From: Aequorivita viscosa
GTDB lineage: Bacteria; Bacteroidota; Bacteroidia; Flavobacteriales; Flavobacteriaceae
Direction of reading: 5' to 3'
Assembly (NCBI RefSeq): GCF_900106795.1
Contig: NZ_FNNS01000023.1
Span: forward strand, 1 to 60,786
DNA length: 60,786 nt
In this document: piece by piece, positions 7,674 to 48,483 of the stretch
How positions within the stretch are numbered: the first letter of the stretch is position 1
How the letters are laid out: each line of letters begins with the position of its first letter
Made by a program: the position numbers and the translations under genes
Notes under the pieces: generated by a model
The model's database searches: none
What the model saw: the letters and a program-made list of their open reading frames with translations, nothing else
Told to the model about the DNA's origin: nothing

Positions 7674-7959
7674 TAAAAAATTAAATATTAGTAAATAGAT
7701 ATGCTTGCTTTTTAGGGATAGATTAAGATTATGAAGACTATAGCTTATAGCCAGAACTAATTTAAGAATAGACTAACATACTATTGTGTTGGAAATTCTT
7801 GTAAATATATTAAATAAAGGATTAAGATTCAATGGTGCTTTGGACTGTAACCTACTACGCTTTGTTATAATTTATTGGGGTTCAGTATTTCTGAAGGGAA
7901 TTATTTTTGGCAAAATAGATAGTGTACCCTATAGGATTAATATAAATAAATCGAGGTAT

Positions 7960-7979
7960 GGACAGGTCGCGAAGTACCC
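7960..7979 (+). repeat. Degenerate REP1 half-palindrome
   Basis: GGACAGGTCGCGA at 7960-7972 matches the left half of the palindrome found inside RAYT-1 (10759-10778). The right half is missing, and AGTACCCA follows in place of the usual GTACGG tail. Confidence 0.5.
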
Positions 7980-8275
7980 ACCCCAAATGGCGCGCTTTTG
8001 AAAAACATGTCTATTTATTGTTGCATTTGTAATGCATATCACATGCTTTTGACACTGAGAATATAATTATTTTTGGTATTACTCATACTTAAACTCTTGC
8101 TGTCTGTAGTTTATACAAGGTTTTTTTAACGTTTGATTTATAATGGAAAGAATATCTAAACTATCCTGCACACAAGTGTAAGATAAGCATTGTATGTTTT
8201 TTTGAAATGCGAATCTTTATTTGCTTTTTAGGTTTTGAGCACAGCCCACTTGGAGAAGCTTGGGGAGCGTAGAAA

Positions 8276-8337
8276 TGAATTGGGGAGGAATTGGGGAGGA
8301 ATTGGGGAATTGGGAGAATTGGGGAATTGGGGAATTG
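8276..8337 (+). repeat. G-rich imperfect tandem repeat (GGGGAGGAATT / GGGGAATT units)
   Basis: Repeated units of GGGGAGGAATT and GGGGAATT run directly up to the first base of the REP1 palindrome at 8338. Runs of three or four G at short intervals could form a G-quadruplex on the plus strand. No protein-coding meaning is apparent. Confidence 0.8.
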
Positions 8338-8364
8338 GGACAGCTCTCGAGCTGTCCGTACGGG
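8338..8364 (+). repeat. REP1 palindrome with GTACGGG tail
   Basis: GGACAGCTCTCGAGCTGTCC at 8338-8357 has 8-base arms around CTCG and is followed by GTACGGG. The same arrangement (palindrome then GTACGG, same orientation) recurs at 10207, 10759 and, with one change, 11051, all around RAYT-1. Confidence 0.85.
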
Positions 8365-8574
8365 ATATCCAAGATTTGGAAATGAAAGATTGGGTGCAAA
8401 GGCTTATTTATTCTATCGAAATACAGGATTTTGCACAGGAGATATTGGATAGACTATCTTGTTTAGTATTTGTGAAATTGTGGCTCCCAGCCAGCATTAA
8501 ATTATAAAAAATAATATCCTTATAATTTTTAAGTGCAAGTAAGAGTTACAATATATTCCCCGATTAATTGATGG

Positions 8575-8612
8575 AAAGCCGCCTCTATAATTAAACTGAG
8601 ACGGCTTTTTTC
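8575..8612 (+). terminator. Terminator-like hairpin
   Basis: AAAGCCGCCTC (8575-8585) pairs with GAGACGGCTTT (8598-8608) with one mismatch, followed by a run of T. No clear gene ends upstream of it, which hints that a transcript, perhaps from a lost gene, once ended here. Confidence 0.55.
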
Positions 8613-8920
8613 ATTTTTATTTAATGGTATTGAGTATTCAAAGCCCTTGTATTCCCAACTACATATCGACCGACCCATTTTTTCTCCTCGCTTAATGTTA
8701 CAAAATAAGTATTGACAGAAAAGCTTGTATGTCCGCTACAGTCTTTTTGACAATGGTCTTTTTTATTAGTCCTTCGCAGAAATACAGGTGCAATATGAGG
8801 CAAGAAATACAAATCTCAACATTAAACCACATACCTTTAAGGAGGCTTGCGACAACATCTTTCCGGAATCTATTTCCCACAATTTCCATACAGCTATATT
8901 AATGTGGGGACTTAACAGGA

Positions 8921-10144
8921 ATGGCTTTTGTAGGTTTGCAAACTTTTAAAAATGCAATGCAAAACAATAAACGAACTCTTGTAATCCTCATCCTGGGCCT
9001 GCTTTCTGCGCTTGGACCATTTTCTATAGATTTATACTTGCCAGGATTCCCAGAGATAGCACGCGATTTAAATTCTACTACTGGCCGGGTGGCACTTTCC
9101 TTATCGAGTTATTTTATAGGTGTGAGCATTGGACAAATGATTTATGGCCCTCTACTAGACCGATTTGGTAGACGGATTCCGCTATTGATTGGCCTGTTTA
9201 TTTATTTATTTGCTTCTGTGTATATTGTATATGTTACGTCTGTAGATTCCCTGATCCTCGTCCGATTTGTACAAGCACTAGGAGGATGCGCCGGAATGGT
9301 GGCTGCCCGAGCTTTGGTTCGCGATCTTTTTCCTGTAACTGAAACAGCAAAAGTATTCAGTCTGCTGATGCTGGTAATTGCTGTTTCGCCAATTGTTGCC
9401 CCTACCCTAGGCGGATTTGCAACGGCGCATTGGGGCTGGCATTCTATTTTTATAATTTTAGCCGTGTTGGCGGCAATCAATATTCTTCTGGTCTATTTCT
9501 GGCTTCCCCTAGGGGCACAACCAGATACCACAATGTCTTTAAAACCAAGGCCGATCATTACCAAGTTTTGGACTGTGTTTAAAACACCCCAATTCTACAC
9601 ATACACTCTCACGGGATCGTTTGCTGCCAGTGGACTATATGCCTATATCGCCGGATCGCCACATGTGTTTATGGAACTTTATGGGGTTTCTGAAAAACAA
9701 TATGGATGGATTTTTGGGATTATCGCCTTGGGATTGGTTATTGCTAGCCAAGTAAATACTGTTCTTCTCAAAAAATACACAAGCCAGAAAATTGTAAAAA
9801 CTACTCTTATCTGCCAAGTTTTCGCTGGTGCACTTTTGTTTTTTGGTACTATACTCAACCTTATTGAAATGTACTCGATGATCGTCCTAGTTTTTCTATT
9901 TCTCAGCACTCAAGGTTTCGCTTTTCCAAATACCTCAGCGCTGTCATTAGCACCTTTTGAAAAGAACGCAGGAACAGCTTCTGCACTTATGGGGGCGCTC
10001 CAACTTGGAATCGGGGCGATGATTACTGCTTTGGTTTCTATGCTGAGCAATGAAACGGCTCTCCCGATGACAGGGATTATGTTTTTATGTGCGCTCGCGG
10101 CTTTTGGTATGCTGTATTGGGGACAACGGAGGGTAAAGGAATGA
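8921..10144 (+). CDS. Bcr/CflA family MFS drug efflux transporter
   Basis: 407 residues with twelve hydrophobic segments. The N-terminal signature LGPFSIDLYLPGFPEIARDL is diagnostic of the Bcr/CflA branch of the major facilitator superfamily. The MFS loop 2-3 motif follows as GPLLDRFGRRIPL. Such carriers export bicyclomycin, sulfonamides or similar compounds, or amino acids and dipeptides, by proton antiport in the inner membrane. The start at 8921 gives a 12-residue leader before a second ATG at 8957 (MQNNKRT), which is an equally possible start. The gene stands alone inside the REP1 island, and a purine-rich tract begins at its stop codon. Substrate cannot be told from sequence. Confidence 0.88.
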   Translation: MAFVGLQTFKNAMQNNKRTLVILILGLLSALGPFSIDLYLPGFPEIARDLNSTTGRVALSLSSYFIGVSIGQMIYGPLLDRFGRRIPLLIGLFIYLFASVYIVYVTSVDSLILVRFVQALGGCAGMVAARALVRDLFPVTETAKVFSLLMLVIAVSPIVAPTLGGFATAHWGWHSIFIILAVLAAINILLVYFWLPLGAQPDTTMSLKPRPIITKFWTVFKTPQFYTYTLTGSFAASGLYAYIAGSPHVFMELYGVSEKQYGWIFGIIALGLVIASQVNTVLLKKYTSQKIVKTTLICQVFAGALLFFGTILNLIEMYSMIVLVFLFLSTQGFAFPNTSALSLAPFEKNAGTASALMGALQLGIGAMITALVSMLSNETALPMTGIMFLCALAAFGMLYWGQRRVKE

Positions 10145-10206
10145 GGAAAGGGAGGAAGAAATGGCGAAAAAGAGGAGAAAAAGAGGAGAAAGGGAGGAGA
10201 AAGGGA
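10141..10206 (+). repeat. Purine-rich (GA) imperfect repeat abutting a REP1 palindrome
   Basis: Almost uninterrupted purine sequence built of AGAGGAGAAA and AGGGAGGAGAA-like units runs from the transporter stop codon to the palindrome at 10207. It parallels the G-rich tracts before the palindromes at 8338 and 10759, although the unit differs. Confidence 0.8.
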
Positions 10207-10233
10207 GGACAGCTCGCGAGCTGTCCGTACGGG
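10207..10233 (+). repeat. REP1 palindrome with GTACGGG tail
   Basis: GGACAGCTCGCGAGCTGTCC at 10207-10226 is a perfect 20-base palindrome, followed by GTACGGG at 10227-10233. It lies 19 bases beyond the 3' end of RAYT-1. Confidence 0.9.
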
Positions 10234-10251
10234 ATTCGGCGGGGGAGGCAA

Positions 10252-10899
10252 TTATGATGTGGGGAAAAATTTGTCGGTTTGCCATTTTGATGGATTCTGA
10301 TCGATGTAATCTGAAATTATTTGATAACTCTTATCACTCCTTATAATATGATCGTGAAATGAGCGATGCCACGCAAAACTTGAAAACCCTGCTTCGTGTA
10401 TCATTTTTGATGATGTTGTTTTAAAAGCACCTACCAAACTGGATAAGGATTTTATTTTTATCGGCTTGTCAACAACTTTCGAACTGTCAATTTCTATTAT
10501 CGCATGTACGTGATTGGGCATAACCACATAATTATGCAACACTACATAACGGTATTGTTCTGCCAACCACAGCAATCTGTTTTTAACTATTTCGCCATAT
10601 TCATTTAACTCATTTATTTGATTTTGGATTTGTGTGGAGGAAGTAGGGCTTGGAAGATGGTGGTTTGAAGAGGAGCTGCTTGGGGAGGAGCTGCTTGGGG
10701 AGGAGCTGCTTGGGGAGGAGCTGCTTGGGGAGGAGCTGCTTGGGGAGGAGCTGCTTGGGGACAGGTCGCGACCTGTCCGTACGGAGGGAGTGATATTTCC
10801 TAGGCAGCAGAGCATTTTCTTCACGCAGATAGTGATGAAATATAGATCGTCTTGGGAGTAATCATATCCCTTTAATCTATTTCTCTTTCTGTTCTTCAT
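10252..10899 (-). CDS. REP-associated tyrosine transposase (RAYT-1), Y1/HUH family, with Ser/Pro-rich insert
   Basis: 215 residues from the ATG at 10897-10899. The start GYDYSQDDLYFITICVKK, the HUH metal-binding motif HVH (residues 130-132, in MPNHVHAII) and the late tyrosine Y198 in SDYIDQNPSKW are those of IS200/RAYT transposases. These enzymes nick and rejoin single-stranded REP palindromes. All catalytic parts appear present. Between GNIT (about residue 37) and NELNEYG (about 96), where I expect relatives to have only a short link, lies an insert. Its first part reads PSVRTGRDL and is encoded by a REP1 palindrome. Its second part is six copies of a five-residue PSSSS unit encoded by a 15-base tandem repeat. 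REP1 copies lie on both sides and inside the gene, which makes it the likely cognate enzyme. Activity with the insert is unknown. Confidence 0.85.
   Translation of the reverse strand: MKNRKRNRLKGYDYSQDDLYFITICVKKMLCCLGNITPSVRTGRDLSPSSSSPSSSSPSSSSPSSSSPSSSSPSSSSSNHHLPSPTSSTQIQNQINELNEYGEIVKNRLLWLAEQYRYVVLHNYVVMPNHVHAIIEIDSSKVVDKPIKIKSLSSLVGAFKTTSSKMIHEAGFSSFAWHRSFHDHIIRSDKSYQIISDYIDQNPSKWQTDKFFPTS
10671..10760 (+). repeat. 15-bp minisatellite, six copies, inside RAYT-1
   Basis: The unit AGGAGCTGCTTGGGG is repeated six times without a mismatch (10671, 10686, 10701, 10716, 10731, 10746). The period keeps the RAYT-1 frame and encodes PSSSS on the minus strand. The array runs directly into the REP1 palindrome at 10759. 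Perfect identity suggests recent expansion. Confidence 0.95.
10759..10784 (+). repeat. REP1 palindrome within the RAYT-1 reading frame
   Basis: GGACAGGTCGCGACCTGTCC at 10759-10778 is a perfect 20-base palindrome followed by GTACGG. It differs from the neighbouring copies by compensating changes in both arms (CAGGT/ACCTG instead of CAGCT/AGCTG). On the minus strand it is translated as part of SVRTGRDLSP. Confidence 0.93.
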
Positions 10900-10966
10900 G
10901 ATAATTCTTATTGGAATTTGTGCTGCTTCTTAGTATCGACAGCTTTCTCTAGTTTTCACTATTTTA

Positions 10967-11000
10967 GATTTATTCCCCTTATTTTTGACAGCTCTCGAGC
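10967..11000 (+). repeat. Truncated REP1 copy, direct repeat of 11031-11065
   Basis: GATTTATTCCCCTT followed by ATTTTTGACAGCTCTCGAGC. The left arm and centre of the palindrome are kept, the right arm is lost, and the sequence runs into AAGCTAGGACAG. The flank and half-palindrome are repeated 64 bases later. Confidence 0.7.
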
Positions 11001-11030
11001 AAGCTAGGACAGTTCTGCCTGTGCCTCGTG

Positions 11031-11077
11031 GATTTATGCCCCTTTATTTTGGACAGCTCTCGAGCTGTACGTACGGG
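11031..11077 (+). repeat. REP1 copy with upstream flank duplicated
   Basis: The flank GATTTATGCCCCTTTATTTT leads into GGACAGCTCTCGAGCTGTAC (11051-11070), one arm base changed from consensus, then GTACGGG. Together with 10967-11000 it forms a direct repeat. It lies 27 bases from the 3' end of the DUF1206 gene. Confidence 0.8.
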
Positions 11078-11103
11078 ATATAAATATATGAAATTTTGGT
11101 ATT

Positions 11104-48443: not shown

Positions 48444-48456
48444 TTTGCAGCTGGTT

Positions 48457-48483
48457 ATCGGTTGTCGGTTGTCGGTTGTCGGT
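48457..48483 (+). repeat. 7-bp tandem repeat CGGTTGT
   Basis: CGGTTGT occurs three times in a row, continued by CGGT, between the stop of the saccharopine dehydrogenase family gene and its terminator. It resembles in size and position the GGTTAGA repeat at 11976. Confidence 0.75.

Follow-up and report, generated by a model that had tools for sequence, protein, structure and literature searches.

Tandem arrays, apparently grown from local flanking DNA, abut the palindromes of a REP-associated tyrosine transposase in Aequorivita viscosa and related bacteria

We analyzed a stretch of 60,786 nucleotides of the Aequorivita viscosa genome (contig NZ_FNNS01000023.1, hereafter the window) that hosts a gene for a REP-associated tyrosine transposase (RAYT), here called RAYT-1, and four copies of a 20-nt repetitive extragenic palindrome (REP), here called REP1. 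All four copies lie in one orientation between 8.3 and 11.1 kb, and the pattern used to find them had on average 0.00 matches in 100 shuffled versions of the window. Tandem Repeats Finder detected four arrays in the whole window, three of which end at the REP1 copies at 8338, 10207 and 10759 and have mutually unrelated units. The features of the locus that bear on this association are the following:

8277..8339, plus strand: G-rich tandem array with 8/11-mer units (GGAATTGG, GAATTGGGGAG), found with Tandem Repeats Finder; its inner end lies 2 bases into REP1 8338.
8338..8363, plus strand: REP1 palindrome (8338-8357) with GTACGG tail, 0 mismatches in the pattern search.
10146..10209, plus strand: imperfect, purine-rich 11-mer array GAAAGGGAGGA with 76% matches, found with Tandem Repeats Finder; its inner end lies 3 bases into REP1 10207.
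10207..10232, plus strand: REP1 palindrome (10207-10226) with GTACGG tail, 0 mismatches in the pattern search.
10252..10899, minus strand: RAYT-1, a Y1 HUH transposase of 215 amino acids with HxH at 130/132 and Tyr198, assigned from Pfam, NCBIfam, alignment, AlphaFold and Foldseek.
10670..10761, plus strand: perfect 15-mer array of 6.1 copies within RAYT-1, whose minus strand codes for (PSSSS)n, found with Tandem Repeats Finder; its inner end lies 3 bases into REP1 10759.
10759..10784, plus strand: REP1 palindrome (10759-10778) with GTACGG tail, 0 mismatches, in frame within RAYT-1 and in the sense opposite to the gene.
10967..11065, plus strand: degenerate duplication of flank together with the left half of REP1, in two copies 64 bp apart (10967-11000 and 11031-11065).
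11051..11076, plus strand: fourth REP1 copy, with one mismatch in the arm, from the pattern search.

An earlier note on this DNA had described the three identical palindromes with their shared orientation and tail, each abutted by a different tandem repeat, and both observations hold. It had also placed the end of every repeat exactly at the first base of the palindrome; the edges in fact lie 2, 3 and 3 bases inside, on the palindrome's GG or GGA. The array at 10207 begins directly behind the stop codon of a gene for a major facilitator superfamily (MFS) transporter. Heptamer tandem repeats (GGTTGTC, GTTAGAG, CAGGTTT and GGTTATT, 4-6 copies) also occur away from REPs, both in the window (48453-48483, the fourth array) and elsewhere (L012:1897, 3235 and 4385).

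The RAYT-1 protein matches PF01797 (E 1.5e-5) and the NCBIfam model REP_Tyr_transpos (E 2e-15), the latter with 56.9 bits, under the curated cut-off of 80. We aligned 37 of 50 RAYT sequences, namely those of the window and of 49 related loci; the 13 loci outside the alignment (L034, L040, L044, L054, L058, L059, L061, L066, L067, L068, L072, L073 and L074) include some with stops or truncation. H130, H132, W177 and Y198 are invariant among the aligned sequences, so that the HUH motif and the catalytic tyrosine are both present. Of the published RAYT motifs NH[IFV]H, WQ and YIxNNP, RAYT-1 has NHVH, WH and YIDQNP, while WQ is found in many relatives. In the AlphaFold model the core has a predicted local distance difference test score mostly above 90, whereas the linker at about residues 41-90 stays near 50 and is predicted to be disordered; Foldseek matched the model to ISDra2, IS608, 2xm3 and the E. 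coli RAYT 4er8. It is this linker that carries REP1 10759 and the 15-mer array, translated as VRTGRDLS-(PSSSS)n. The gene is flanked by its own palindromes, with four REP1 copies within 2.6 kb, and it is present once in the genome; the defined ends and many near-identical copies of an IS200/IS605 element were not found. Judged from these sequence and model comparisons, RAYT-1 is a REP-associated tyrosine transposase and REP1 is its partner palindrome. A scan of viral contigs with the RAYT alignment matched 29 stretches, none of which was confirmed as a relative.

A palindrome inside the RAYT match is common among the related loci (30 out of 49), three of which (L067, L068 and L072) have one of another sequence. 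The tail of the in-gene REP points in the sense of the gene at 20 of 23 sites, and the window holds one of the three reversed cases. Every strict site has a GTAC foot on one side; the other side reads GTAG or similar in many relatives, but not in this genome (the published foot is 5' GT[AG]G).

The genome assembly comprises 3.54 Mb in 62 contigs, the window being contig C32, and repeats could be missing from it. Allowing up to 3 mismatches, six REP1 sites are detectable genome-wide, four in the window and two on contig C14 (C14:3044 and C14:3098). A strong abutting array is present at four of the six (8338, 10207, 10759 and C14:3044), always on the left, which is the side away from GTAC. The arrays at C14:3044, a case absent from the earlier note, have 14-mer and 19-mer units and an inner end 3 bases into the REP, and C14:3098 has no array of its own. 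Two further RAYT genes of the genome each come with a palindrome of their own, present at two places for one and at three for the other when up to 3 mismatches are allowed. At one of these five places a doubled 15-mer starts 4 bases from the palindrome, and at another a 9-mer is doubled to the left of an in-gene palindrome, as judged by eye. The third RAYT gene also has an 11-mer array of 4.6 copies (L014:7521-7571) about 220 bp upstream, amid similar broken repeats.

Both C14 copies are situated some 160-240 bp past the stop codon of a gene on that contig for a Cas12f-like protein (L012:3280-4380, minus strand), whose best match is the nuclease-deactivated Cas12f 9n9c (E 4e-169). The gene adjoins one for a sigma-70-type factor (PF04542; L012:4481-5263, minus strand), and we take the pair to be probably an RNA-guided dCas12f-sigma transcription system. 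REP1 clusters are also found in two genomes just behind genes for weakly related proteins (L012:2151-2936 and L025:3005-3745; 23% identity, E 6e-5 in a single comparison).

To measure how often arrays adjoin REPs, we collected sites from this genome and its relatives, the latter comprising the 49 loci of the RAYT alignment search, pattern matches in 24 of 31 genomes searched, and region fetches. We counted sites with the same flanks once and removed five second-strand readings from the 94 REP sites, which left 89 distinct sites. Loci L067-L074 were left out of these counts, the copy at 11051 is outside the strict pattern and hence outside the 89, and L046 was counted from its own stretch, being outside the genome pattern search. 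We defined an abutting array as one with a self-match score of at least 12 and a period of 5-40, lying within 8 bp of the REP. Such arrays occur at 27 of the 89 sites; three sites have them on both sides, for a total of 30 arrays (10 left and 20 right). When 4,000 random positions were drawn from the same loci, the rate was 0.30% per side. Outside the A. viscosa genome alone, 23 of 84 sites bear an array (binomial P about 1e-31 at 0.6%). The association proposed from three examples is therefore recurrent and beyond chance. The earlier note had added that it would be fortuitous if most copies lacked repeats or if the repeats lay on random sides. Indeed, 62 of the 89 sites have no array; yet the rate is about 50 times that of the control, and chance is not the answer.

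Other properties expected from the first examples are local to this genome. The fixed side holds for its four arrays (4 left, 0 right) and is lost elsewhere (6 left, 20 right). Likewise, its four arrays have a purine fraction of 0.64-0.94, compared with 0.31-0.68 for the other 26. The suggested help from G-quadruplexes fails, and with it the idea of a G-quadruplex satellite, since the strict motif (four runs of at least three G, loops of 1-7) occurs in only one of the 30 arrays, that at 8338. We also looked for longer periods (41-130 bp), which were detectable at 18 of the 89 sites; the random control was high too (50 of at most 1,500 draws), and we make no claim from this signal, which clustered regularly interspaced short palindromic repeat (CRISPR) arrays in some of those loci may explain.

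The association follows the palindrome rather than the RAYT locus, because arrays are found also at distal REPs. Before second-strand removal (94 rows), arrays were present at 10 of 23 in-gene REPs, 5 of 23 REPs within 1 kb of a RAYT gene, and 13 of 48 distal ones. We then compared all hairpins with a stem of 9 or more (143 in 620 kb). Arrays adjoin 28 of the 102 REP-like hairpins and 1 of the 41 others (P-value 3.9e-4, Fisher test). The only array-bearing hairpin among the others is the second RAYT's own palindrome; when it is left out, the others fall to 0 out of 40 (P-value 3.5e-5). The REP-like hairpins overlap with the 89 sites and are thus not an independent set, and the other hairpins are unmatched for stem or G+C. 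In E. coli K-12, none of 26 REPs in 300 kb, found with a REP pattern, has an abutting array (P-value 0.001), and the genome sampled does have a rayT gene.

Comparison of close relatives indicates how the arrays arose. Loci L028 and L033 share 92.3% identity across 1,005 aligned bases that span the gene and its flanks; around their common in-gene REP, the number of 15-bp units differs by two on the left and by three on the right. Between L035 and L061 the difference amounts to 125 bp of units, and between L062 and L063 it is a single 21-bp unit containing half of the REP. On C14, a REP segment has been duplicated, as marked by a direct repeat of 19 bp at 2944 and 3068; the right copy joins its REP through a short spacer, a position that the array occupies in the left copy. 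In genome G445, a homologous MFS gene end is followed by a single AGAGGGGAGGA, which is purine-rich, with no REP and no array; the alignment is gapped and the evidence modest. Because the array is confined to one C14 copy, the species pairs differ by whole units and G445 holds a single AGAGGGGAGGA, we read the array unit as local flank. As far as aligned sequences can tell, the arrays are secondary growth of that flank after the REP was in place. The species pairs and C14 thus bear out the local repeat growth beside REPs that the earlier note had supposed.

The inner edges of the arrays fall on landmarks of the hairpin. In 31 rows (one site being read on both strands), seven edges lie at the hairpin base, including those of all four arrays of this genome, nine just outside the foot, five at 5-6 bases in, seven at 9-12 bases in, around the dyad axis, and three at 15-16 bases in; the clustering at the outer edge is partly built in by the 8-bp rule. 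Edges at the dyad axis are exemplified by CGACCTGTCCGTACA, in which the unit joins half of the palindrome to the foot, and 15-mers of this type occur also outside RAYT genes (L109, L110 and L120). Units that include the whole REP, of 63, 64 and 43 bp, are found in L015, L041 and L016.

Two further features concern the surroundings of RAYT-1:

7674..11103, no strand: block between two genes that are neighbours in two same-genus relatives (about 190 bp apart in G254), an inferred insertion or rearrangement.
8921..10144, plus strand: MFS transporter gene (PF07690), a neighbouring gene with a 91% identical relative in G445, which has no RAYT-1.

Matches to RAYT-1 at E up to 1e-20 were found in one of 28 genomes of the genus, its own. 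The flanking genes lie side by side without the 3.4-kb block in two of the five genus stretches fetched (G254 and G436), and the DUF1206 gene is absent from the other three. At the borders of the block, no convincing trace was found of the short stretch that separates the two genes in G254 and G436. We infer that the block is an insertion or rearrangement, and the distribution is most simply read as a recent arrival of RAYT-1, although it does not prove one. The idea that the MFS gene travels as cargo in a REP composite is unsupported, as G445 has the gene in another order and with no RAYT-1 match. There (L163:8072-14250), the relative of the MFS gene adjoins a Cas9-like gene (HNH_4, RuvC_III), a gene order unlike that of the window.

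A second type of neighbourhood recurs among the relatives. In 21 of the 49 loci of the RAYT-1 family, the RAYT gene and cas2 converge (the match ends 3-90 bp away), and cas1 follows. These loci are L026, L027, L028, L030, L033-L036, L038-L040, L042, L043, L046-L048, L052, L053, L055, L058 and L061. Ten of them also have 3-73 copies of one 35-nt CRISPR repeat, and in the loci inspected (L023, L035 and L061) the repeats lie on the other side of the RAYT gene from cas2; Cas1 and Cas2 of L023 were confirmed by Pfam. RAYT genes are thus recurrent at the cas2 end of CRISPR-Cas9-type loci, for which a literature search of titles returned no paper.

To explain the arrays, we favour slipped copying: the REP hairpin probably, though by no means surely, seeds repeated copying of its own flank. 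Once a REP is in the chromosome, its hairpin would promote tandem duplication of the adjoining DNA. The 3' end of a strand being copied would halt at the hairpin, be it at the base, at the 4-nt foot or at the dyad axis, slip back to a short upstream match and copy the flank again. After repeated rounds, the hairpin would have fixed the inner edge of the array, and the flank that happened to be there would have supplied the unit. In this genome the halted end would carry the opening bases of the palindrome (GG or GGA), and the units that grew would be those holding GG or GGA; this would account for the G-richness of its arrays. The part of the RAYT would be to place, or expose, the REPs rather than to cut each unit.

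Several points weigh against slipped copying. The effect is limited to RAYT partner palindromes, whereas plain hairpin slippage should touch some of the other hairpins or E. coli REPs; these controls differ in strength, the E. coli REPs being bulged and the other hairpins unmatched as said above. Most REPs bear no array, the clustering of outer edges owes something to the 8-bp rule, and the G445 alignment is gapped. Moreover, growth is read from comparisons between close species.

The confinement to partner palindromes speaks in favour of the nicking put forward in the earlier note: the RAYT itself would drive growth by a nick beside the REP that leaves a 3'-OH at the hairpin foot, with repair or strand transfer then yielding tandem copies. 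RAYT-1 retains the HxH motif, the catalytic tyrosine and, in the predicted structure, the TnpA fold, and known TnpAREPs cut on both the 5' and the 3' side of the REP, leaving a 3'-OH (PMC8266576, available in part). The minus strand of the four arrays of this genome is rich in CT and CA steps, which are cut under a GTAG guide. In one RAYT studied in the available part of that source, however, a GTAC guide moved cutting to GA or GT, and the same minus strands contain 0 GA and 0 GT, although a rule from another RAYT may not fit this subclass. Pure-flank units carry no RAYT signal and, since units consist of arbitrary flank, a sequence-specific nuclease alone would not make them. Distal REPs act like near ones, and E. 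coli REPs lack arrays despite the rayT gene of that genome. On this evidence growth driven by the RAYT, albeit possible, is unlikely. A bolder version, which we regard as doubtful, is that the REPs of this RAYT subclass are sites of repeat birth, where RAYT action at the hairpin turns local flank into arrays; with its own REP in the linker, the enzyme would go on altering its own disordered domain, and likewise the disordered domains of host genes in which a REP lands.

The remaining alternatives fare worse. REPs might insert preferentially into or beside pre-existing arrays, as IS200/IS605 relatives pick their targets by sequence and the REP1 sites here all adjoin G- or purine-rich DNA. Copy number around the same REP nevertheless varies between close species, one copy of the duplicated C14 segment has no array, and many units cannot predate the REP, as they contain its foot or one half of it. 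We reject this explanation for C14 and for the pairs L028/L033, L035/L061 and L062/L063, and consider it improbable in general. Even less credible is that selection keeps the arrays, as variable disordered RAYT linkers or as spacers, with the link to REPs as a by-product: in-gene arrays do keep the frame (units of 15 and 18 bp) and the linker is predicted to be disordered, but half-REP 15-mers occur also outside RAYT genes and arrays are as frequent at distal as at near REPs. Chance or low-complexity composition can practically be dismissed. The finding did owe its selection to its appearance, and G-rich sequence is prone to repeats, but C14:3044 and the 23 array-bearing sites outside this genome were unpicked.

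The origin of new tandem repeats in bacteria and the cause of strain-to-strain variation in REP arrays are open questions. They become testable with a family of palindromes for which the rate of adjacent arrays can be counted, the edges fall at hairpin landmarks and workable controls exist. Array birth at REPs would also supply a source for the variable RAYT linkers, in which short repeats had been noted earlier.

The earlier note had held that a palindrome with an adjacent repeat was not a described element. Parts of it are published: Quentin et al. (2018) reported in-frame REPs within subclass 2.4 genes and short repeats in the variable domain (PMC6006769), and Di Nocera et al. (2013) reported REPs reiterated with flanking DNA (PMC3733652), both sources being available in part. 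In the literature searched, which was in part accessible and beyond which subscription papers largely lay, flank-derived arrays abutting REPs at hairpin edges are unreported. The closest system is that of the TnpAREP/RAYT subclass 2.4 (Bertels group 4) REPtrons. Like RAYT-1, these have a Bacteroidetes HUH/Y1 protein flanked by its own palindromes and REPs inside the gene with no loss of frame. The in-gene REP generally lies between HuH and Y there and before HuH in RAYT-1, the foot is GTAC here, and the available text of PMC6006769 describes neither flank arrays abutting REPs, distal ones included, nor their edges. Tandem REP and REPIN clusters (PMC3733652 and PMC3116915, as far as available) resemble the whole-REP units of L015, L041 and L016, whereas most units here consist of flank, with or without a portion of the palindrome, and a single intact REP stands at the end. 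Enterobacterial bacterial interspersed mosaic elements (BIMEs) share RAYT-linked palindromes and arrays variable between strains, but their unit is a pair of REPs, and the 26 K-12 REPs lack abutting short arrays. For BIME differences, Nunvar et al. (2010) considered strand slippage unlikely to be the sole cause and proposed RAYT action (PMC2817692, available in part). In vitro, a polymerase slips on a hairpin template, a system with no REP, RAYT or genomic arrays in the part of the source available (PMC4134008). The archaeal Borg elements have fast-evolving tandem repeats that make disordered protein stretches, with no link to REPs or RAYTs seen in the available part of PMC9879509. We read the array-bearing REPs as a variant of the known REP-RAYT system.

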